A stretch of DNA of 33,486 nucleotides from Actinomadura sp. BRA 177 (GTDB lineage: Bacteria; Actinomycetota; Actinomycetes; Streptosporangiales; Streptosporangiaceae). Location of the stretch: contig NZ_JABXFD010000191.1 in assembly GCF_013372625.1 (NCBI RefSeq), positions 1-33,486 of the forward strand, given 5' to 3'. The notes beneath the pieces were generated by a model. The model had not been told where the DNA came from. It saw only the letters and a list, made by a program, of their open reading frames with translations, and did no database searches. Positions 8,272-33,355 of this stretch are shown one piece after another. Positions within the stretch are counted from its first letter, which is position 1, and each line of letters begins with the position of its first letter. A program made the position numbers and the translations under genes.

Positions 8272-9439
8272 TCAGAAGGGCGGTTTCGCGGGCGGCTTCG
8301 GCTTGGCGTCCGTCCAGCCCGAGTCCCGGACGAGCCAGTAGTTGATCACGAAGCCGGGCGCACGGGTCCGGTACGCGCCGCCGGGCCTGGTCAGCACGGT
8401 CCGGCTGCCCAGCAGCCCACCCGTCCCCGGGTCGAAGATGATCTCCTCCCGGGAGTCGAAGTCGCCCTGCTCGCCGGCGGGCGCGCCGTACTCGCCGCCG
8501 ACGCGGGCGGTGCCGTTGTCGGCGGCCAGCGCCACGCCCCTGCGCCCCAGCTCATCGACCACGGATCCGATCGCCCGGACCCCCGGCTGCGCGGCGAGGG
8601 CCCGCATCAGCCCGGCCCGGACGGCCGGGGAGAGGGGGGCCTCCATCATCAGGTCCTCGACCCGCAGGACCTTGTCACGCGGCGTCATCGGCGGCGGGGT
8701 GCGCGGCTTGACGCCGCGCTCGCGAAGTGCCGCGCGCTTCTCCGGCGACATCGGGCTCAACGCCGGCTTGAAGAACATCGCGGCCAGCGCCTGCGGGTCG
8801 GTCGGCAGGTCCTGGAGCTGGTGGGCGGTCTTGCCGTCCAGCCAGCGGCCCCCGCCCGCCGGGTCCGGGTCGTCCACCCTCCATTCCGTGGTCTTCCGGG
8901 TGTAGGTGCTGTAGTGGTCGTTCGACCACACCCTGAACTTCGCCGGCGAGCCGGCACGTTTCCACGCCGCCTCGTCCTGCTCCGTCAGCGGCCTGGCGGC
9001 AAGGAAGCGCCCGTAAAACGCCTCTCCGCCGCCCTTCTTCGCGGCGGCCCACCGGAACGTCTCGCTGTGCGCGCCGACGATCGCGTAGCTCCCGGTCTTC
9101 GGCCGCATCATGTAGGACTGGCCCTGGATCTGGTCGGTGTACCAGTACGCGCCGGTCGGCAGCAGCTCCGCCTTCGCCGCGGCCGCCAGCACGGCCTGCT
9201 TGTTCAGGTCCACGCGTGCCGGCGCGTCCTCCGGCGAGCCCGGAGCGGTGACCGCGACGGCGGCGGCCACCGCGGCGCCCGCCGCAACCACCCCGACGCC
9301 CAGGCGGAGCTGCCACCCGAACCGGACGCGCCTTGCGCGGCGGCGTCCCGAGCATCGCGGCGCGGGCCTCGGTCATCTCCCGCAGCGTCGGCGGCTCCGG
9401 CTCCCCGTACGCCTCGCGGATCGTCCGCAGCTCATCCAT
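8272..9439 (-). CDS. CU044_5270-type membrane protein (copy 2), frameshifted near 9328
   Basis: Paralogue of the gene at 6355. The ATG at 9439 opens MDELRTIREAYGEPEPP and overlaps the sigma stop by 8 bases. Homology runs to AAMLGTPPRKA in that frame, then resumes one frame over as VRFGWQLRLGVGVVAAG, the membrane helix and the extracytoplasmic domain, ending at 8272 with GWTDAKPKPPAKPPF. One surplus base near 9328 explains it. With it removed the protein is 388 aa, against 391 in copy 1. The shift may be an assembly or sequencing error, or a true mutation. As it stands no intact product can be read from the ATG; translation from an internal GTG at 9291 would lack the N-terminal sigma-facing part. 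Confidence 0.75.
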
Positions 9440-10043
9440 GGTCGTCCTCCCTTTCGTGCATCGGGTTCGTGCCGCCGAGTGCCTCGCGCACCTTCTTCCT
9501 GGCCCGGCTCAGCCGCGACCCGACCGTCCCGTAGGGGACGTCCAGGGCCGCCGCGACCTCCTCGTGGGTGAGGTCGGCGAGCGCGACGAGGAGCAGCACG
9601 TCGCGCTCGCCGTCCGGCAGCGCGGCGATCGCGCCGGCCAGCCGTCCGCGCAGGCCTTGCGCGCTGACCCGGGCGTCCACCCGGTCGGCGTGCCCGCCCT
9701 CGTCCCGGACAGGACCGAGCCGCGCGCGGGCCCGCAGCCCGCGCACCTCGCTGCGCCGGTGCCTGCCGATGACGTTGGTCGCGATGCCGTACAGCCACGT
9801 CCGCACGTTGGCCCGTGCCGGGTCGAAGCGGTCGCGGTGGCGGAACGCCTCCAGGAACGTCTGGGAGGCGATGTCGGACGCGGCGTCCGGGCCGAGCCGC
9901 TTGGCGGCGTACCCGTGGATCTCGGCGAAGTGGGCGTCGAACACCTCACCGAACCGTTCGGGGTCGTGCAGGGACGGCCGCGGCGCGGCCGGACCGGGAT
10001 CGGCCCGACCCGGCCGCGCCGCGGCGAGGGGGTTCCCCGTCAT
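9432..10043 (-). CDS. ECF-type RNA polymerase sigma factor (copy 2)
   Basis: 203 aa. Region 2 is seen in FGEVFDAHFAEIHGYAAKRLG and RTWLYGIATNVIGRHRR. Region 4 is seen in LPDGERDVLLLVALADLTHEEVAAAL and TVGSRLSRARKKVREAL. It is clearly paralogous to the sigma factor at 7527, sharing the FDPAR segment and the LLLVALADLT segment. ATG at 10043 is preceded by AAAGG at about 6 bases. It is followed at once by the frameshifted CU044_5270-type gene. The two sigma/membrane-protein modules appear to derive from a tandem duplication followed by divergence. Confidence 0.9.
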   Translation of the reverse strand: MTGNPLAAARPGRADPGPAAPRPSLHDPERFGEVFDAHFAEIHGYAAKRLGPDAASDIASQTFLEAFRHRDRFDPARANVRTWLYGIATNVIGRHRRSEVRGLRARARLGPVRDEGGHADRVDARVSAQGLRGRLAGAIAALPDGERDVLLLVALADLTHEEVAAALDVPYGTVGSRLSRARKKVREALGGTNPMHEREDDHG

Positions 10044-10527
10044 GTGGTGCCTTTCCGTCGCACGGATGGCGGTCGCAGACGTATCACCCGAACCCCGTCA
10101 CCACTTTCACTCCAGCCGACCCACCGGACGCGCCAGGCGCTGCCCCGCAACGAACGGCCCGCCCCTTGCCCGGGAGCGGGGCCGCCCAGTCGTCCACCAC
10201 AGCGCCTGGCCCCTGCGGTCAACGACCTCGGCGCCGAGCACCAGCCGGGCGGGCCGAGCCTCCCCCGGCAGCGCGCCACACTCGGGGGTGCCGAGGTCCA
10301 CGATGCTCCGCGCGGCGAGGACCGGGACGCCCGCAGCCTCGCCCACATCGAGCCGCCCGACGCCGAGCTCGTACGTCAGCGCGGAGTCGGCCGTGCCGAC
10401 CGTCCCGACGCCGCCCTCGCTGCCCCTTGCGGAACGAGCGGGGCTTGCACCTCGCCCGTCCGGAAGGTTGATCGACTTCGCGGAAACGCATACGCCCGCG
10501 ATACGACCCACCGTCTTCAATGCAGCC
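10044..10527. other. 484-bp gap, possible decayed minus-strand gene
   Basis: No confident gene. On the minus strand, roughly 10430 down to 10107, one frame has protein-like composition and about 90 percent G/C at third positions where I counted (10321-10380), with segments such as LGVGRLDVGEAAGVPVLAAR and ARPARLVLGAEVVDRRGQ. No good start codon or ribosome site is visible, and I recognise no family. It may be a remnant or an unusual small protein. Confidence 0.25.
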
Positions 10528-11175
10528 ATGGACCAGAGCGCATCGTCGTCAGCCCCCCATACACGCAGGATCGTGCTGGCCGGCCTGGCGATCCTCGGCG
10601 CGGCGATCGCCGCGTTCGGACCGGTCGGCATGGTGCTGAGGATGTTGTCCCTGCCGATGCGCAGCCCGGATTGGCACGTGTGGGTCGGTACGTTCAACGG
10701 CGTCGCGCTCATCGCGGTGGCCGCATTCCCGCTGGCCGCACTGCTGGTGTGGGCTCTGGCTCGCCGTCGCAGTGCCGCCGGCGCCACGTCGGCGTGGCGG
10801 AGGTCGCTGGCCGAGGTCGGCATCGTCTACGGGACGGTGCCGTGGGTCTGGATGATCCTGCTGCCGGGGGACGAGGGCGGCGCCGTCGTGAGCCTGGTGC
10901 CGCTGCGCGACCTGGTCACGATGGACACGGGCCAGGTCGTCGGCAACCTGCTGGTCTTCGCCGCCCTCGGATTCTTCACCCCGCTGCGCTTCACGGCGCT
11001 GGCGTCGGTACCGCGAATCCTGGCGCTCGGCGCAGCTTGCTCCGCCCTGGTCGAGACCGCGCAGTACGTCCTGCAACTGAGCCGGGTGTCCTCCGTGGAC
11101 GACGTCCTCCTCAACGCCACCGGCGCCGCCCTAGCCGCCCTGGCCTCCCGCCCCTGGTGGCACACAACCCGCTGA
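10528..11175 (+). CDS. VanZ-like membrane protein
   Basis: 215 aa. Four or five hydrophobic segments are visible: about residues 12-40, 50-73, 93-110, 130-150 and 155-175. The C-terminal half carries the VanZ-family pattern: PLRDLV, then QVVGNLLVFAALGFFTPL, then ALVETAQYVLQLSRVSSVDDVLLNATGAALA broken by short gaps. VanZ relatives are small membrane proteins; the founding member gives low-level teicoplanin resistance by an unknown mechanism. The ATG has no clear ribosome site, so the message may be leaderless or weakly translated. It converges on the DUF397 genes with a 32-bp gap and no hairpin. Confidence 0.8.
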   Translation: MDQSASSSAPHTRRIVLAGLAILGAAIAAFGPVGMVLRMLSLPMRSPDWHVWVGTFNGVALIAVAAFPLAALLVWALARRRSAAGATSAWRRSLAEVGIVYGTVPWVWMILLPGDEGGAVVSLVPLRDLVTMDTGQVVGNLLVFAALGFFTPLRFTALASVPRILALGAACSALVETAQYVLQLSRVSSVDDVLLNATGAALAALASRPWWHTTR

Positions 11176-11207
11176 CCCGCCCGCCGCCCAACGTGATCGA
11201 AGGCTGA

Positions 11208-11417
11208 TCAGCGAATGGCCAAGCCCCCACCCTTGATCCGGGACGTCAGCACACGCCACGCGGACGGCGAGACCACCAGCACAGGCCCATCCGGATCCAC
11301 CGAATCACGGACGCCTACGACACCGGGAACGTTGAGCGCCACCTCTACACACGAACTATTACCTCCCCCCGAGTGGCTACTGATCCGCCACTCGGCGACG
11401 GATGGGCTAGACGTCAT
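11208..11417 (-). CDS. DUF397 protein, copy 1 of 3 (distal)
   Basis: 69 aa. DUF397 features: WRISSHSGGGNSSCVEVA at the start, then VGVRDSVDPDGPVLVVSP and WRVLTSRIK. DUF397 proteins are small partners of XRE/DUF5753 regulators in WhiJ-like developmental and antibiotic control systems. Its ATG overlaps the stop of copy 2 by 11 bases (ATGACGTCTAG). It differs from copy 2 mainly in the last residues (GGGLAIR in place of NDDV), because the 190-bp repeat ends here. Confidence 0.85.
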   Translation of the reverse strand: MTSSPSVAEWRISSHSGGGNSSCVEVALNVPGVVGVRDSVDPDGPVLVVSPSAWRVLTSRIKGGGLAIR

Positions 11418-11780
11418 CGTTCTTGATCCGGGACGTCAGCACACGCCACGCGGACGGCGAGACCACCAGCACAGGCCCATCCGGATCCACCGAATCACGA
11501 ATCCTCACGACACCGGGAACGTTGAGCGCCACCTCTACACACGTGCTGTTGCCGCCCCCCGAGTGGCTGCTGATCCGCCACTCGGCGACGGATGGGCTAG
11601 ACGTCATCGTTCTTGATCCGGGACGTCAGCACACGCCACGCGGACGGCGAGACCACCAGCACAGGCCCATCCGGATCCACCGAATCACGAACCCCCACAA
11701 CACCGGGAACGTTGAGCGCCACCTCTACACACGTGTTGTTACCTGCCCCTGAGTGGCTACTGATCCGCCACTGGGCTTCG
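11232..11780. repeat. 190-bp tandem direct repeat, three copies (last one partial)
   Basis: The marker TTGATCCGGGACGTCAGC begins at 11233, 11423 and 11613, exactly 190 bases apart. By eye, copies 1 and 2 are over 90 percent identical; copy 3 diverges after about 165 bases. Because 190 is 3x63+1, each repeat puts its DUF397 gene in a new frame and creates the same 11-base stop/start overlap. This is a recent tandem triplication of one gene. Confidence 0.92.
11407..11607 (-). CDS. DUF397 protein, copy 2 of 3
   Basis: 66 aa, nearly identical to copies 1 and 3 (differences at VRIRDSVD and NSTCVEVA). The start ATG lies inside the end of copy 3 with an 11-base overlap. No strong ribosome site precedes it, so translation probably depends on ribosomes finishing the upstream copy. 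It acts, if like its family, with the XRE/DUF5753 regulator encoded upstream. Confidence 0.85.
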   Translation of the reverse strand: MTSSPSVAEWRISSHSGGGNSTCVEVALNVPGVVRIRDSVDPDGPVLVVSPSAWRVLTSRIKNDDV

Positions 11781-11803
11781 GCGGGGAACCTAAGCATCGA
11801 CAT
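11597..11803 (-). CDS. DUF397 protein, copy 3 of 3 (proximal to the regulator)
   Basis: 68 aa from ATG at 11803 (MSMLRFPAEAQWRISSHSG), which lies 10 bases after GAGGAG; a GTG at 11821 would add six residues. The start overlaps the 3' end of the XRE/DUF5753 gene by 14 bases, the usual arrangement for such pairs. The N-terminus differs from copies 1 and 2 (RFPAEAQ against SPSVAE), so this is the probable ancestral copy from which the other two arose by duplication. Confidence 0.85.
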   Translation of the reverse strand: MSMLRFPAEAQWRISSHSGAGNNTCVEVALNVPGVVGVRDSVDPDGPVLVVSPSAWRVLTSRIKNDDV

Positions 11804-12653
11804 GGACTTGGAACTCCTCACAGACGGCGGCGATGATCGCTACCGAATCCTCTTGGGACAGGGCCGCGTCGGCGATGCGGTCCAGCACCGAGTTGCAGCG
11901 CCGTACTTGCGCGATGTCCTCGATGTACATACTTCCCCCCATAGTTTCCACGTGTGCGGTGTCGAGTTCCAGGGGCGACGAGAACTCAAAAACGTCCACT
12001 GAGCCTTCGCCGAGGCCGGGCCGGTACCCGTGTGCCATGGGAACGATGCGGATGGCCACCGACGGTTGTTCCGCCGCCTCTATCAGCGTCATGAGCTGGC
12101 TCGTCATCACCGCCGGCCCGCCGACCGGACGGCGGAGGATCTCCTCTGCCAGGAGGATGTCGAGTTCGGGCGCGTCGGAACGGGCAAACCGGGCACGCCT
12201 CGCTATCCGGGCCTGTAACCGGCGATCGATCTCGGCCTTGTCGTCCAGAAATTCGCCTGCGATCAGGACACGAGCGTATTCAGGGGTCTGGAGCAGACCA
12301 GGGACAGCTTCCGTTTGCCATGTCCGGATGCGGTCGGCCGCGTCCTCCAACTCGGCATAGCCGCCGGCGAGGACGTCGCCGAAGGCGGCCCACCAGCCTC
12401 GGGTACGAATGTCGCGGGTGAGTTGGAGTAGCGCTGCCCGGGTCGCGTAGTCGGTGCCGTAGACGTCCAATATGCGCTCGACGTCGGCCACGGTGGGCCT
12501 GCCCTTGGCCGTCTCGATGCGGACGAGCTTCGGGCGGCTCCAGCCCAGAAGCCCGGATGTGGCCTCGGGCGTCAGCCGAGCCTCCTCCCGGAGACGTCGA
12601 AGCTCCGCCGCCAGGCGACGGTGGCGAGCGGTGGGCCCGTGGTCGATCGGCAT
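11790..12653 (-). CDS. XRE-family regulator with DUF5753 domain (WhiJ-like)
   Basis: 287 aa. The N-terminal helix-turn-helix covers about residues 5-70 (LAAELRRLREEARLTPEATSG and LGWSRPKLVRIETAKGRPTV). The rest is the DUF5753 domain (TWQTEAVPGLLQTPEYARVL near 125-145; LDILLAEEILRRPVGGPAVM near 180). Family members such as Streptomyces WhiJ bind DNA and work with a DUF397 partner to control development or secondary metabolism. I chose ATG at 12653 with GGGAG 10 bases before; a TTG at 12680 would add nine residues. It is the first gene of the operon with the DUF397 array. An inverted repeat upstream may be its own operator. Confidence 0.9.
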   Translation of the reverse strand: MPIDHGPTARHRRLAAELRRLREEARLTPEATSGLLGWSRPKLVRIETAKGRPTVADVERILDVYGTDYATRAALLQLTRDIRTRGWWAAFGDVLAGGYAELEDAADRIRTWQTEAVPGLLQTPEYARVLIAGEFLDDKAEIDRRLQARIARRARFARSDAPELDILLAEEILRRPVGGPAVMTSQLMTLIEAAEQPSVAIRIVPMAHGYRPGLGEGSVDVFEFSSPLELDTAHVETMGGSMYIEDIAQVRRCNSVLDRIADAALSQEDSVAIIAAVCEEFQVHVDA

Positions 12654-12712
12654 GGGCGCCAGTCTCCCAGCGATGACCAAGAGTGCGCAGTCAAATACCG
12701 AACGGAATCTTC

Positions 12713-12739
12713 GACAAGTAGTAGCGCCCTGTACTTGTC
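12713..12739. promoter_or_regulatory. Inverted repeat GACAAGTA-N11-TACTTGTC
   Basis: Perfect 8-bp arms at 12713-12720 and 12732-12739, 60 bases upstream of the XRE/DUF5753 start and in the 374-bp gap shared with the plus-strand small genes. Symmetry and position suggest an operator for the WhiJ-like regulator. The rest of the gap, to 13027, shows nothing clear beyond a ribosome site (GGAGTGAGG) before 13028. Confidence 0.5.
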
Positions 12740-13027
12740 CATGTCATCCTTCCCGTGTCGAACTGACTCCGCAGCGTCACTTGACGCAGGTGAAGGTTCG
12801 TCGCGTGGCCGTCGACGCTCTACCCCCAGGTGCGGACGGCGGTTGCGTCGTCGGTGCGGGATCGTGCCGGCGGGGCGTTGCGCGGCGGGGGCTCACCCCC
12901 GGGCTCCCGGCGCGTGGCGTTACAAGAGCGAGTCGCGTCCCTGCGGGCTCGTAGATATAGGGCGGCCCCGGGACAGGTGCTGGAACACCGTTACGCCCGG
13001 GGCCTCAATCGGAGTGAGGTCCGATCT

Positions 13028-13342
13028 ATGCGCAACCTAGCTGATTGCTCCGCGACGAGTTGGGTCTACCTCGACCCAGACCAGATCCGGCGCGACCTGG
13101 AGGCCGCGTTCCCCGGCGTCCGAGCGTGGTTCGGCGAGTACACGGGGCACTGGTGGGCGCTGGTGAACGACCGGCTGGTGGAGGCGGACACCCCTCGGCA
13201 GCTCGCCGGCAAGGTTCGCGAGGCCCTCGGACGGGAGGCGCGGCCCCGTCCGACCGCTCCCTCCCGGCCCCGGAAAACGTCGCGGCCCTCGCACGTGCGG
13301 CCGAAGCGGCGGCGGCGCGTTCTGGTCGGGGGCTGGCGGTGA
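13028..13342 (+). CDS. Small hypothetical protein of an XRE/DUF397 neighbourhood
   Basis: 104 aa. An N-terminal ~65-residue domain (SWVYLDPDQIRRDLEAAFPG; WWALVNDRLVEADTPRQLAG) is rich in W, Y and acidic residues. A basic Pro/Arg tail follows (RPRKTSRPSHVRPKRRRR). The tail could bind nucleic acid, but this is a guess. ATG at 13028 is preceded by GGAGTGAGG. Its stop overlaps the next gene's GTG (GTGA). I do not recognise a named family. Confidence 0.65.
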   Translation: MRNLADCSATSWVYLDPDQIRRDLEAAFPGVRAWFGEYTGHWWALVNDRLVEADTPRQLAGKVREALGREARPRPTAPSRPRKTSRPSHVRPKRRRRVLVGGWR

Positions 13343-13638: not shown

Positions 13639-13707
13639 GCCGATGGGGCCGATGCCGGGAACCGGAATAGGGTGCTCAATCGTCCTGTTGTAGAGGTCGT
13701 CAGCAAA

Positions 13708-13728
13708 GTTGAGTCGGGTCGGCTCAAG
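13708..13728. promoter_or_regulatory. HAIR element (HspR operator)
   Basis: GTTGAGT-N7-GCTCAAG matches the HspR-associated inverted repeat CTTGAGT-N7-ACTCAAG at 12 of 14 positions. It lies 112 bases upstream of dnaK. HspR, encoded fourth in this operon, binds HAIR with DnaK as co-repressor in Streptomyces, so the operon is autoregulated and opens on heat shock. Confidence 0.85.
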
Positions 13729-13840
13729 TCATTTGACAAGGGGACGCGATCCGGGCAACCTTGCGGAGAGAAGACGAGACCGGCCGCGCCCTGGGGGCGA
13801 CCGGGGCTGCGATAACACCGGAACGACGGAGGACGAGAAC

Positions 13841-15703
13841 ATGGCACGTGCGGTCGGCATCGACCTCGGGACGACCAACTCGGTCGTCGCGATCCTGGAG
13901 GGCGGCGAGCCCACCGTCATCGCGAACGCGGAGGGGTCGCGGACCACGCCGTCCGTCGTCGCCTTCGCCAAGAACGGCGAGGTTCTCGTCGGCGAGGTCG
14001 CCAAGCGCCAGGCGGTCACCAACGTGGACCGCACCATCCGGTCGGTCAAGCGCGAGATGGGCACCGACTGGAAGACCAAGATCGACGACAAGGACTTCAA
14101 CCCGCAGCAGATGAGCGCGTTCGTGCTGCAGAAGCTGAAGCGGGACGCGGAGTCCTACCTGGGCGAGACCGTGACCGACGCGGTCATCACGGTGCCCGCC
14201 TACTTCTCCGACCACCAGCGGCAGGCCACCAAGGAGGCCGGCCAGATCGCGGGCCTGAACGTCCTGCGAATCATCAACGAGCCGACCTCGGCGGCGCTGG
14301 CCTACCACCTGGAGAAGGAGAACGAGGCCACCATCCTGGTCTTCGACCTCGGTGGCGGTACGTTCGACGTCTCCCTGCTGGAGGTCGGCGACGGCGTGGT
14401 CGAGGTGAAGGCCACCAGCGGTGACAACCACCTGGGCGGCGACGACTGGGACCAGAAGGTCGTCGACTGGCTGGTCGAGAAGTTCAAGAGCGCCAACGGC
14501 GTCGACCTGTCCAAGGACAAGATGGCGCTGCAGCGGCTGCGCGAGGCGGCGGAGAAGGCGAAGATCGAGCTGTCCGGTTCGTCCGAGACGCAGATCAACC
14601 TGCCGTACATCACGGCGTCCGCCGAGGGCCCGCTGCACCTGGACGAGAAGCTCACCCGGGGTGAGTTCCAGCGGATGACCTCCGACCTGCTCGACCGGAC
14701 CAAGGCGCCGTTCCAGTCGGTGCTGAAGGACGCCGGCATCGGCGTGGACAAGATCGACCAGGTCGTGCTGGTCGGTGGTTCGACCCGGATGCCCGCCGTG
14801 TCCGACCTGGTGAAGGAGCTGACCGGCGGCAAGGAGCCGAACAAGGGCGTCAACCCGGACGAGGTCGTCGCGATCGGCGCCAGCCTGCAGGCCGGCGTGC
14901 TCAAGGGCGAGGTCAAGGACGTCCTGCTGCTGGACGTGACCCCGCTGAGCCTCGGCATCGAGACCAAGGGCGGCATCTTCACCAAGATCATCGAGCGGAA
15001 CACCACGATCCCGACCAAGCGGTCGGAGACGTTCACCACCGCCGACGACAACCAGCCGTCCGTGGAGATCCAGGTCTACCAGGGCGAGCGCGAGATCGCC
15101 GCGTACAACAAGAAGCTCGGCACCTTCCAGCTCACCGGTCTGCCGCCGGCGCCGCGCGGCGTCCCGCAGATCGAGGTCACCTTCGACATCGACGCGAACG
15201 GCATCGTGAACGTCAGCGCGAAGGACCAGGGCACCGGACGCGAGCAGTCGATGGTCATCACCGGAGGCAGCGCGCTGCCGAAGGAGGACATCGAGAAGAT
15301 GATGCGCGACGCCGAGGACTACGCCGAGGAGGACCGCAAGCGCAAGGAGGAGGCCGACGTTCGCAACCAGGCCGACACCCTCGCGTACTCGACCGAGAAG
15401 TTCCTGCGGGAGAACGACGAGAAGGTCCCCGCGGAGCTGAAGACCGAGGTGGGCGACGCGGTCGCCGAGGTGAAGAAGGCCCTGGAGGGCACCGACGTCG
15501 ACGCCATCAAGGGCTCGGCGGAGAAGCTCGCGCAGGTCTCCCAGAAGATGGGCGCGGCGATGTACGCGCAGCAGCCCGAGGGCGGCCAGCCCGGCGGCGC
15601 CGAGGACCACGGCCCGACGGCCGACGCGCAGGGGCCGCAGGACGACGAGGTCGTCGACGCGGAGATCGTGGACGAGGACAAGCCGAAGGGTGATGCATCG
15701 TGA
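13841..15703 (+). CDS. dnaK: Molecular chaperone DnaK (Hsp70)
   Basis: 620 aa, standard length. The N-terminal ATPase domain begins [14 protein letters not shown], with the phosphate loop [18 protein letters not shown] and the adenosine motif [11 protein letters not shown]. The substrate-binding domain begins near residue 360 ([14 protein letters not shown]). The C-terminal lid ends in an acidic tail ([13 protein letters not shown]). The ATG follows GGAGG (13828-13832) with 8-base spacing; an upstream open frame from 13709 has no homology. First gene of dnaK-grpE-dnaJ-hspR-clpB. It folds and refolds proteins with DnaJ and GrpE, and in actinomycetes also serves as HspR co-repressor. Confidence 0.98.
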
Positions 15704-16353
15704 CGTCCTCTCCCAGTGAGGGCGAGGAGAAGGAGGGCCCGGTGATCCGCGACAAGCGGCGCATCGATCCCGAAACGGGGGAAGTCCGGGTGCCGGCGGC
15801 GGAGTCGCCGGCCCCGGAGGCCCCGGCCGACGGGGGCGCCGGCAAGACGGCCAAGACCGACAAGACCGACGAGGAGGTCTCCGCGCTGCAGGAGCAGCTG
15901 GCGGAGCGCATCGCCGATCTGCAGCGGCTGAAGGCCGAGTACGACAACTACCGCAGGCGCGTCGAGCGCGACCGGGTCGCGGTCCGCGAGCAGGCCCTCG
16001 GGCAGGTGCTGTCCGAACTGCTCCCGGTACTGGACGACATCGGCCGCGCCCGTGACCACGACGAGCTCACCGGCGGGTTCAAGTCCGTCGCGGAGAGCCT
16101 GGAGGCGGTCACCGGCAAGCTCGGCCTGGTGCGGTACGGGGAGAAGGGCGAGCCCTTCGACCCGAACGTGCACGAGGCGCTCATGCACTCGCTCTCGGCG
16201 GACGTGACCGAGACGAGCGTGGTGGACGTCCTGCAGCCCGGCTACCGGATCGGCGAGCGCATCCTGCGGGCGGCGCGCGTCGCGGTGGCCGACCCCGACC
16301 CGGACGCCGGCGAGGACAAGCCCGCCGACGAGCCGGCCGACGACGGCGAGTGA
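15700..16353 (+). CDS. grpE: Nucleotide exchange factor GrpE
   Basis: 217 aa starting at a GTG that overlaps the dnaK stop (GTGA). A disordered Pro/Ala/Lys-rich N-terminus of about 45 residues is followed by a long coiled coil (about 48-90; [20 protein letters not shown]) with the family motif YRRRVERDR. The beta-wing domain includes [13 protein letters not shown] and ends near [20 protein letters not shown]. It releases ADP from DnaK. The acidic tail ([14 protein letters not shown]) is typical of actinomycetes. Confidence 0.97.
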
Positions 16354-16360
16354 GCCCCAT

Positions 16361-16387
16361 GGGCCCGTCCCTCACGGGGGCGGGCCC
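16361..16387. terminator. Intercistronic hairpin between grpE and dnaJ
   Basis: An 11-bp stem with one G-T pair (16361-16371 with 16377-16387) and a 5-base loop lies in the 87-bp gap. It has no T tract. It could act as a partial terminator or an RNA stabiliser, making more DnaK-GrpE than DnaJ-HspR-ClpB. The role is inferred. Confidence 0.45.
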
Positions 16388-16440
16388 GATCGGGGGCGTG
16401 CAGACATGTGGCAAGTGGCGATAGCAGAAGGCGGGGCGCC

Positions 16441-17616
16441 GTGAGCACCAAGGACTACCTGGAGAAGGACTACTACAAGGTCCTCGGTGTCGCGAAGACG
16501 GCCTCGCAGGAGGAGATCAAGAAGTCCTACCGGAAGCTGGCGCGCAAGTACCACCCGGACGCCAACAAGGGCGACGCCGACGCCGAGGACCGCTTCAAGG
16601 AGGTCTCGGAAGCCTACGACGTGCTGTCCGACGAGAAGCGCCGCAAGGAGTACGACAGCGTCCGGTCGATGCCGGGCGGGTTCCGCGGCCAGCAGGGCGG
16701 CGGCGGCTTCGGGTTCGACCTCGGCGACCTGTTCGGCCAGGGCGGCACCGGGACGCAGACGGGCGGCACCGGCGAGCGCATCGGCGACCTGTTCGGCGGG
16801 CTGTTCGGCCGGGGCGGCGGCGGGGGCACCCGCACGGCGGGGACGCGGCGCGCCCGGCGCGGCGCGGACGTGGAGACCGAGGTGACGCTGTCGTTCGGCC
16901 GCGCGATGAACGGCGTGACCGTGCCGATCAAGCTGACCAGCGAGGCGGCCTGCGACAGCTGCCGCGGGACGGGCGCGAAGGCCGGCACGGTGCCGCGGGT
17001 GTGCCCGAACTGCGAGGGCACCGGGCACGAGACCCGCAACCTCGGCAACTTCGGCTTCCAGGAGCCGTGCAAGGAGTGCCGCGGCCGGGGCCTCGTCGTC
17101 GACGACCCGTGCCCGACCTGCCACGGCAGCGGCCGCGCGACCGGCACCCGGACGATCCAGGCCCGCATCCCGGCGGGCGTCGCCGACGGCCAGAAGATCA
17201 GGCTGAAGGCCAAGGGCGCGCCCGGCGAGAACGGCGGCCCGTCCGGCGACCTGTACGTGAACATCAAGGTCCGGCCGCACGCGGTGTTCGGACGCAGCGC
17301 CGACAACCTCACGCTGACGATCCCGGTGACGTTCCCCGAGGCGGCGCTCGGCGCCGAGATCCGGGTGCCGACGTTCCAGGGGCAGCCCGTCACGCTGAAG
17401 CTGCCGGAGGGCACGCCCAACGGCCGCACGTTCCGGGTGAAGGGCCGCGGCGCGACCCGGCGCGACGGGACGAAGGGCGACCTGCTCGTCACCGTGGACG
17501 TGCACATCCCGCAGAAGCTTGACGAGCAGTCCCGCGAGGCGCTGGCCAAGCTCCGCGAGACGGGCGGCGGCGAGGACCTGCGCGCCGACATCATCCAGCA
17601 GGCCAGGCAGGAGTGA
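16441..17616 (+). CDS. dnaJ: Chaperone protein DnaJ (Hsp40)
   Basis: 391 aa from GTG ([18 protein letters not shown]). The J domain has the HPD triad in KYHPDANKG near residue 37. A Gly/Phe-rich segment follows (about 75-140). The zinc-binding domain has four CxxCxGxG repeats ([32 protein letters not shown]) from about residue 170 to 230, then the C-terminal substrate-binding domains. It stimulates DnaK ATPase and delivers clients. A frame opening at 16408 adds residues without homology; AAGGCGGGG precedes the chosen GTG. Confidence 0.97.
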
Positions 17617-17620
17617 GGTC

Positions 17621-18067
17621 ATGGACCCGTTCGGCGATGACACTCCGGTCTACGTGATCTCGGTGGCGGCGCAGCTGTCCGGCCTGCATCCGCAGACGCT
17701 GCGGACTTACGACCGGATGGGCCTGGTGTCCCCGGGCCGGACGGCGGGCCGGGGGCGCCGCTACTCGATGCGCGACATCGTGATGCTGCGCGAGATCCAG
17801 CGGCTCTCCCAGGAGGAGGGCATCAACCTGTCCGGCATCAAGCACATCCTGGAGCTGCAGCGCGACAACGTGCGGCTCCGCGAGGAGCTCGGCAAGGCGC
17901 ACGCGGCGCTGGAGGAGCTCGCCAACGAACTCGAGTCGACCCGCGCGGTCGCGGCGCGGCTGGCGCAGCAGCGGCGGCACGGCGACCCGACCGGCACGCC
18001 GGGCGCCGACCTGGTGCCGATCAGGCACACCAGCGTCGTCGTCTGGCACGAACGCAACACCGACTGA
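17621..18067 (+). CDS. hspR: Heat-shock repressor HspR (MerR family)
   Basis: 148 aa. The MerR-type helix-turn-helix spans about residues 10-80 (YVISVAAQLSGLHPQTLRTY; RYSMRDIVMLREIQRLSQEE). A coiled-coil segment follows (LELQRDNVRLREELGKAHAA), then a conserved C-terminal stretch (PIRHTSVVVWHER). It represses the dnaK operon by binding HAIR. ATG lies 4 bases after the dnaJ stop, so it is co-transcribed. The HAIR site at 13708 completes the feedback loop. Confidence 0.95.
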   Translation: MDPFGDDTPVYVISVAAQLSGLHPQTLRTYDRMGLVSPGRTAGRGRRYSMRDIVMLREIQRLSQEEGINLSGIKHILELQRDNVRLREELGKAHAALEELANELESTRAVAARLAQQRRHGDPTGTPGADLVPIRHTSVVVWHERNTD

Positions 18068-32470: not shown

Positions 32471-33355
32471 ATGGATCGCTGCGCGCTGTTCGTGGACGCC
32501 GGTTACCTGCTGGCGGACGGCGCCATGGCCGTGCACGGCACGCGCCACCGCGAGACTGTCTCCTGGGACTTCGGCGGGCTGCTGCAACTCCTGGGCAACC
32601 TGGCGCGAGAACGCACCGGCCTGCCCCTGATGCGCTGCTACTGGTACGAGGCGACGATCGAGGGCCGCCGCTCGCCCGAGCACGACTCGCTCGCCGACCT
32701 GCCCGGCCTCAAACTGCGGCTCGGCCGCGTCCGCCCCGGCCGCCGCGAGGGCGTCGACACCGAGATCCACCGCGACCTGATGACCCTGGCCCGCAACGGC
32801 GCGCTCGCCGACGCCGTCCTGGTCAGCGGCGACGAGGACCTCGCGCAGATCGTCACCGACGCGCAGGACCTCGGCGTCCGCGTCACCGTCGTGCACGTCG
32901 CCGTCGACGGCAACTGGACGATCTCCCGCGTGCTGCGGCAGGAGTGCGACGACCTCATCGAGATCGGCTCCGGCCACCTGCGCCCCTACGTCAACCTGCT
33001 CGCCGGCGTGGACGGGTCGTCCGGCTCCCCGTACGGGACGAGCCCGCTGTCCAACGGGCACGGCACCTCGCACGGCGTCTCGCACGGCGCCTCGTCGAAC
33101 GGGCACAGCCCCTCACTCGGCTCCCTGCAACCCGCCTCGCACAACGGCCCGCCGCCCGCGTCGCCGGTCAGCGGGCCGCCGATCCCGTCCGCCTCGTCCG
33201 TCCGCGACCTCGGCCCGGCCATGTCCGGCGGGATGAGCAACGGCTCCTCCGCGGGCCCCGGCGTGGGCACCGGCCCGATGCCACTGCCCGGCGGCACCGG
33301 CGGCGGCCTCGCCGGATCGTCCTACGGCACCGGCGGCCAGCAGGCCCCACTGCAG
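32471..33355 (+). CDS. NYN-domain (PIN-like) ribonuclease, 3' end missing
   Basis: At least 295 aa. The NYN domain fills about residues 1-165: RCALFVDAGYLLADGAMAVH with a first catalytic-type Asp, YWYEATIEGRR, GVDTEIHRDLMTLARNGALA and ADAVLVSGDEDLAQIVTDAQ with the later acidic residues. NYN proteins are PIN-fold nucleases acting on RNA. From about 177 onward a long Gly/Ser/His/Pro-rich disordered tail follows (SNGHGTSHGVSHGASSNGHS). The ATG has AGGAAGGA before it. Genomic sequence stops near 33355, where adapter sequence begins, so the true C-terminus is unknown. Confidence 0.85.

Follow-up and report, generated by a model that had tools for sequence, protein, structure and literature searches.

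The window analyzed here, the whole 33,486-nucleotide stretch of DNA from Actinomadura sp. BRA 177, carries on its minus strand a gene for an XRE/DUF5753 regulator with three DUF397 genes behind it, and these three genes are closely similar copies set at a period of 190 bp (Table 1). The explanation that we favor, and consider probably correct as a whole, is that the locus is an XRE-(DUF397)n operon in which coupled translation would provide extra and mixed partner subunits, and in which the array is of the birth-and-death kind. Tandem DUF397 genes and DUF397:XRE ratios above 1 have already been published, and the window array is best read as adding to the known XRE-(DUF397)n operons. Two features were less to be expected: the clustering of the differences between copies in two patches, and the in-frame repetition of the DUF397 N-terminal hairpin in other genes.

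The regulator, the DUF397 genes and the 190-bp repeat

The regulator gene starts at ATG 12653, with a TTG at 12680 also open, and its TAG stop ends at 11790. The product scores 170.6 bits against Pfam DUF5753 and 61.6 bits against HTH_31, and its score against the NCBIfam model TransRegSco1979 is 203.9 bits, below the cut-off of 350. All three DUF397 copies pass the Pfam cut-off of 24 bits (68.0, 66.5, and 68.3 bits), and the residues S13, S16, C23, V24, E25, R37, and D38 are invariant among 44 aligned DUF397 sequences, the window's three included. The gene order is that of an XRE-DUF397 pair of the WhiJ/BldB type, an HTH-XRE and DUF5753 regulator lying directly upstream on the same strand, and also that of an XRE-(n)DUF397 tandem unit, at least two DUF397 genes following one XRE gene on the same strand.

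As judged from the sequence, ATG 11803 is a likelier start for copy 1 than GTG 11821. Read from that ATG, the gene overlaps the end of the regulator gene by 14 bp and is preceded by a Shine-Dalgarno-like sequence, and the N-terminus of its product, MSMLRFPAEAQW, also occurs in A. latina. Inspection by eye shows no ribosome-binding site of the AGGAG kind upstream of copies 2 and 3. A search of positions 11000-13200 for terminator-like and sigma-70-like sites found none, a weak test in that the means for shuffled sequence were only 0.9 and 0.3. Elsewhere in the window, dnaK, grpE, dnaJ, and a MerR-family gene lie beyond the regulator on the opposite strand (13841-18064), a sigma-70 family factor with regions 2 and 4 is encoded on the minus strand at 9435-10043, and there are two short tandem repeats, at 15792-15843 (period 15) and 33058-33094 (period 12).

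Table 1. Features of the regulator-DUF397 locus, its repeat and its variable patches, with the loci that carry in-frame hairpin repeats
Feature	Position	Strand	Basis
XRE-type regulator, HTH_31 + DUF5753	11790..12653	-	Pfam
DUF397 copy 1 (MSMLRFPAEAQW...NDDV, stop)	11597..11803 (ORF 11597-11821)	-	ORF + Pfam PF04149
DUF397 copy 2 (MTSSPSVAEW...NDDV, stop)	11407..11607	-	ORF + Pfam PF04149
DUF397 copy 3 (MTSSPSVAEW...GGGLAIR, stop)	11208..11417	-	ORF + Pfam PF04149
Shine-Dalgarno-like AGGAG	11814..11818	-	By eye; 10 nt before ATG 11803
190-bp tandem repeat	11232..11776	-	Tandem Repeats Finder: 2.9 copies, 94% matches, 0% indels, score 976
Stop/start overlap of copies 1/2, 11 bp, ATGACGTCTAG	11597..11607	-	Sequence
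Stop/start overlap of copies 2/3, 11 bp, ATGACGTCTAG	11407..11417	-	Sequence
Variable patch 1, unit offset 38-63	11734..11759 (copy 1), 11544-11569 (copy 2), 11354-11379 (copy 3)	-	
Variable patch 2, unit offset 98-107	11690..11699 (copy 1), 11500-11509 (copy 2), 11310-11319 (copy 3)	-	
Hairpin repeats, L081 1599-2037	G000:C168, matches at 13641-14015		About five units by eye, four profile-scored
Further hairpin-repeat loci	L066, L070, L071, L083, L085, L092-L095, L100-L103, L144		

The initial annotation described an exact 190-bp repeat that recreates the same 11-base overlap and seemed to be selected to stay functional. The three copies, the period, and the shared overlap were borne out at the coordinates given, on the minus strand, a strand that the annotation had left unstated. 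The repeat is exact in its period, without indels, but not in its sequence, the copies being 93-94% identical over the core. Since 190 is 3 x 63 + 1, each copy falls in the next frame, and at both junctions the next start codon lies 8 nt before the end of the stop codon of the previous reading. Selection for rebuilding the overlap is superfluous as an explanation, because any duplicated segment that contains the junction carries the junction along, so that a tandem duplication spanning it copies it anyway. The outer ends of the array differ, copy 1 having its own N-terminus and copy 3 its own C-terminus. The idea of a repeat unit that extends exactly from one stop codon to the next was dropped, that distance being 193 and not 190.

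Arrays in Actinomadura and the history of the copies

All three Actinomadura genomes in which the family was searched contain tandem arrays, taken as DUF397 matches with gaps of up to 500 bp, and duplication of the kind seen in the window is ordinary there. The window genome has 96 DUF397 matches, and 40 of its 82 full domains stand in arrays of two to four; in Actinomadura genome G053, a single 9.19-Mb contig, 52 of 76 full domains stand in arrays of two to five, and in A. latina (G020) 16 of 56 do so, all in pairs. Full domains make up 82/96, 76/84, and 56/66 of the matches in these genomes; the other 32, of which 25 are N-terminal partials, were left out, and a few of those kept as full are partial or hold a stop. 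For Actinomadura craniellae, 94 BldB paralogues are reported in the available text of two papers (PMC10294661, PMC4255298).

Junctions were compared in 58 adjacent pairs drawn from 48 loci, which were chosen for arrays or partial repeats and are not a random sample. Overlapping junctions total 23 of the 58 (4 bp in 19 pairs, 14 bp in 2, and 11 bp in 2, both of the latter in the window), a count that used the start codon nearest the stop and thereby favors overlaps; the rest have gaps below 30 (22 pairs) or larger gaps (12 pairs), and in one the start was not found. Adjacent spacings of 1 mod 3, as in the window array, make up 8/24 in the window genome, 10/31 in G053, and 0/8 in A. latina, and spacings of 2 mod 3 make up 13/24, 16/31, and 5/8, respectively.

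The window regulator is 82% identical to that of A. madurae and 77% identical to that of A. latina. In A. latina, synteny extends to both sides of the locus: dnaK lies upstream and a VanZ-like gene (Pfam) downstream, the downstream synteny consisting of an 81% DNA match to window positions 10484-11392. A single DUF397 gene follows the regulator there. A. madurae also has dnaK upstream and a single DUF397 gene. In a small tree, in which several supports are low, the three window copies are adjacent, as are the three copies of G053. Because the window copies resemble each other more than they resemble the lone DUF397 genes of the nearest relatives, the extra copies are lineage-specific duplications or have been homogenized in the lineage. 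Tests of origin covered the 3' flank and the 5' linker as sources of the new linker (MTSSPSVA, in copies 2 and 3). Flank alignments for this linker and for the C-terminus of copy 3 had best p values of 0.15-0.38, with one exception, at p 0.0014, to the end of the A. madurae gene, which is mostly coding.

The number of DUF397 copies behind related regulators ranges from 0 to 5. Among 70 related regulators from named genomes, a search up to 3 kb downstream and on that strand only found no DUF397 gene nearby in 34 cases, one in 30, two in 5, and three in 1, so that the partner is not universal; 32 of the 34 without one are from Nocardia.

Two rival accounts of the three copies were considered. 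One is that the assembler expanded a single real copy. The assembly is a draft of 735 contigs and the window is a whole contig, but the copies each carry variants of their own, the outer ends are unlike, the longest exact repeat is only 122 bp, and similar arrays occur in the single contig of G053; with private variants in every copy, an artefact of expansion is very unlikely, and we regard its probability as close to negligible. A draft of this kind could instead have collapsed further copies, and it is possible that the true number exceeds three. The other account is that the array is nearly neutral copy-number noise, a young and dispensable expansion before decay. The variable copy number behind related regulators, the broken copies in some arrays, and the sufficiency of a single copy in the closest relatives found all fit with this, and a recent, nearly neutral duplication would look alike except in pN/pS, which here draws on only 10-11 differences per pair. 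Against it, all three reading frames are intact, and pN/pS between the three copies is 0.37, 0.17, and 0.21 (as uncorrected proportions), which supports purifying selection and the proposal of the initial annotation that the copies are kept functional. Across the 58 adjacent pairs the pooled value is 0.41 and none exceeds 1, in a set found by profile and hence biased toward intact domains. We rate near-neutrality as a minority possibility, somewhat unlikely though to be taken seriously.

Stops in the copies of relatives, which the initial annotation had regarded as evidence against functional copies, gave a mixed picture: the window copies are open, and a few arrays in the same genome contain broken ones. 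Broken or partial DUF397 copies were seen at array ends in L067 (2567-2778), L083 (1674-1776), and L084 (1875-2797). From their sequences, broken copies point to a birth-and-death process in the DUF397 family, to which the window array most likely belongs.

Variable patches and predicted folds

The comparable core of the repeat spans 151 bp and has 16 variable sites, at a pairwise identity of 0.93-0.94. These sites are clustered (permutation p 0.00014 by the sum of squared gaps and 0.00066 by the longest gap; p 0.014 and 0.051 in the same tests for copies 2 and 3 alone), and 15 of the 16 lie inside two patches, the remaining one being at the 5' boundary. The patches cover 36 of 162 sites and hold 15/16 of the differences between copies, against 8/25 of those between A. 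madurae and A. latina (Fisher p 9.6e-5), a comparison for which the patch boundaries were drawn after the data had been seen; the permutation test is independent of the boundaries. Between copy 1 and A. madurae, 8/21 differences fall at patch sites (p 6e-4 against 15/16). Other arrays have no such concentration at the same sites (11/30 and 4/20 differences in G053 and 10/31 in A. rayongensis), which argues against a patch rule for all arrays.

A predicted model of copy 2 (pLDDT 82, pTM 0.64) has strands at residues 11-13, 24-27, 34-38, and 41-49 and a helix at 51-62. On this model, patch 1 (residues 13-22) is the loop that joins strands 1 and 2, a region modeled with lower confidence than the C-terminal part, and patch 2 (residues 33-36) is at the start of strand 3. 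Changes inside the patches are both synonymous and replacement; the array may let its copies diverge, as the initial annotation proposed, but with synonymous changes included the differences do not demonstrate selection on the protein. In 49 of the 58 adjacent pairs, those at least 60% identical, the loop exceeds the C-terminal part 1.53-fold in amino-acid differences (95% interval, 1.14-1.97) and 1.41-fold in synonymous differences (1.03-1.88), both relative to cross-array pairs. Selection for loop diversity as such is not supported, the excess being found for synonymous differences as well, and a process at the DNA level fits equally well. A comparison with 52 loci of the window genome, which represent part of its 96 DUF397 matches, revealed no donor for ectopic conversion of the patches; the best donor scores for patch 1 were 20, 22, and 18 of 30 bases (copies 1, 2, and 3), and the best for patch 2 was 12/14, in a segment too short to be judged.

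The DUF397 fold had no Foldseek match in the PDB with E < 1. Fold relatives proposed by VIA-align, of which the best had a Z of 4.8, were too weak to use; among these weak matches were the KhtT N-domain 7aht (50 residues aligned, rmsd 2.5) and the PC4 homologue 5a4n (58 aligned, rmsd 3.2). A PDB sequence search with copy 2 returned one match, at E 0.36, and the regulator profile returned none at E 0.001. The regulator was modeled as well (pLDDT 82, pTM 0.67), and the N-terminus of the prediction matches HTH proteins. Foldseek matched the DUF5753 part of this model (residues 85-282) to 4gem_B (E 2e-3) and 4rct_A (E 3.4e-3), both of the phospholipase D superfamily. VIA-align placed the same part on 4rct_A with 140 residues aligned at Z 9.6 and rmsd 3.5, a middling Z that can arise by chance, and on 7clg, 9vbj, and 7e0m with 139-143 aligned, Z 9.1-9.6, and rmsd 3.5-3.6. 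A resemblance of DUF5753 to the phospholipase D superfamily fold is thus a lead suggested by modeling. The catalytic motif of that superfamily is HxKxxxxD. Inspection by eye of the 287-aa regulator sequence found no HxK, so the regulator would be a noncatalytic phospholipase D relative at most. An open-access literature search found nothing that brings DUF5753 and phospholipase D together.

Proposed role and published relatives

Under the operon reading, copy 1 would have a ribosome-binding site of its own for translation, and copies 2 and 3 would depend on termination-reinitiation, as suggested by the overlaps together with the absence of a visible ribosome-binding site for these two copies. 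One transcript would in this way yield several DUF397 chains per regulator. In published work on relatives, DUF397 proteins form homo- and hetero-oligomers, and by analogy such oligomers may assist the DNA-bound XRE protein or oppose it; if the Streptomyces systems are a guide, the array would raise the dose of the partner and make mixed oligomers possible. The earlier suggestion that the array raises the DUF397:regulator ratio is plausible, and the likeliest role, again by analogy, would be to enlarge the supply of subunits for a multimeric partner with chains that differ slightly from one another.

Several published systems resemble the window locus, as far as the accessible portions of their descriptions go. 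S. clavuligerus has five XRE-(n)DUF397 units, in which one XRE protein is expected to work with DUF397 multimers and the DUF397:XRE ratio exceeds 1 in RNA and in ribosome footprints (PMC8269248). The window locus is like them in having several DUF397 genes after one XRE gene; its own array has copies 93-94% identical, a fixed 190-bp period, and an 11-bp overlap. The WhiJ-BldB pairs of S. venezuelae and S. coelicolor also combine an HTH-XRE regulator with an adjoining DUF397 protein, and have many paralogues (PMC10294661, PMC4255298); BldB paralogues form hetero-oligomers (PMC10294661), and SCO4542 is thought to relieve WhiJ repression (PMC4255298). In Scr1/Scr2 (SCO4441/SCO4442) and other S. 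coelicolor pairs, an HTH and DUF5753 protein is likewise accompanied by a DUF397 partner, of 63-91 aa, and these pairs have one DUF397 per XRE whereas the window locus has three (PMC6262351, PMC10364602). Scr1 depends on Scr2 (PMC6262351). Kaur et al. (2020; PMC7159879) noted that DUF397 occurs as several tandem copies together with an HTH gene, and proposed multimers; they read DUF397 as a toxin, unlike the reading here.

If DUF397 were the toxin of a type II toxin-antitoxin system, the array would raise the toxin dose. Such a role has been predicted from genomic features, according to the available text of Makarova 2009 (PMC2701414) and Doroghazi 2014 (PMC4239341), but the relative Scr2 is reported not to be toxic in S. 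coelicolor, in S. lividans, or in an S. coelicolor strain from which both genes are missing, and the pair works as an activator (accessible portion of PMC6262351). In addition, neither copy 2 nor the regulator was matched by PADLOC. We give the toxin reading very little credence and prefer the operon reading, with DUF397 as a partner subunit.

A separate form of repetition was observed within DUF397 genes. The N-terminal hairpin of the domain (WRKSSxS...CVEVA) is repeated in frame in at least 20 ORFs from four genomes: 9 in the window genome, 5 in G053, and 4 in A. latina (at least 18 in the three Actinomadura genomes), and 2 in Nocardiopsis prasina. The extra hairpins, of about 17-32 aa each, precede a full domain or the end of the examined stretch, and scored neighboring hairpins are 51-96 bp apart, with one exception, at 111 bp, where a unit in between went unscored (L081). 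An open-access literature search found no mention of DUF397 hairpin repeats in the text available to it. Natural XRE-DUF397 fusions were also sought, and none of 7 long DUF397 ORFs (a redundant set) matched the regulator. A broader and doubtful possibility, to which we assign a low probability, is that Actinomadura DUF397 loci diversify on two scales, genes being iterated with a frame shift as separate but coupled units and hairpins being iterated in frame, with patch changes in this young array giving one regulator a set of partners that have different recognition surfaces, perhaps by mutation or conversion limited to those segments.

Relatives of this system in Streptomyces affect development and antibiotic production. 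Each of the three Actinomadura genomes examined has 56-82 full DUF397 domains. The clustering of differences in two patches suggests where specificity may lie, and a young three-copy array together with a one-copy sister locus offers a natural dosage experiment.
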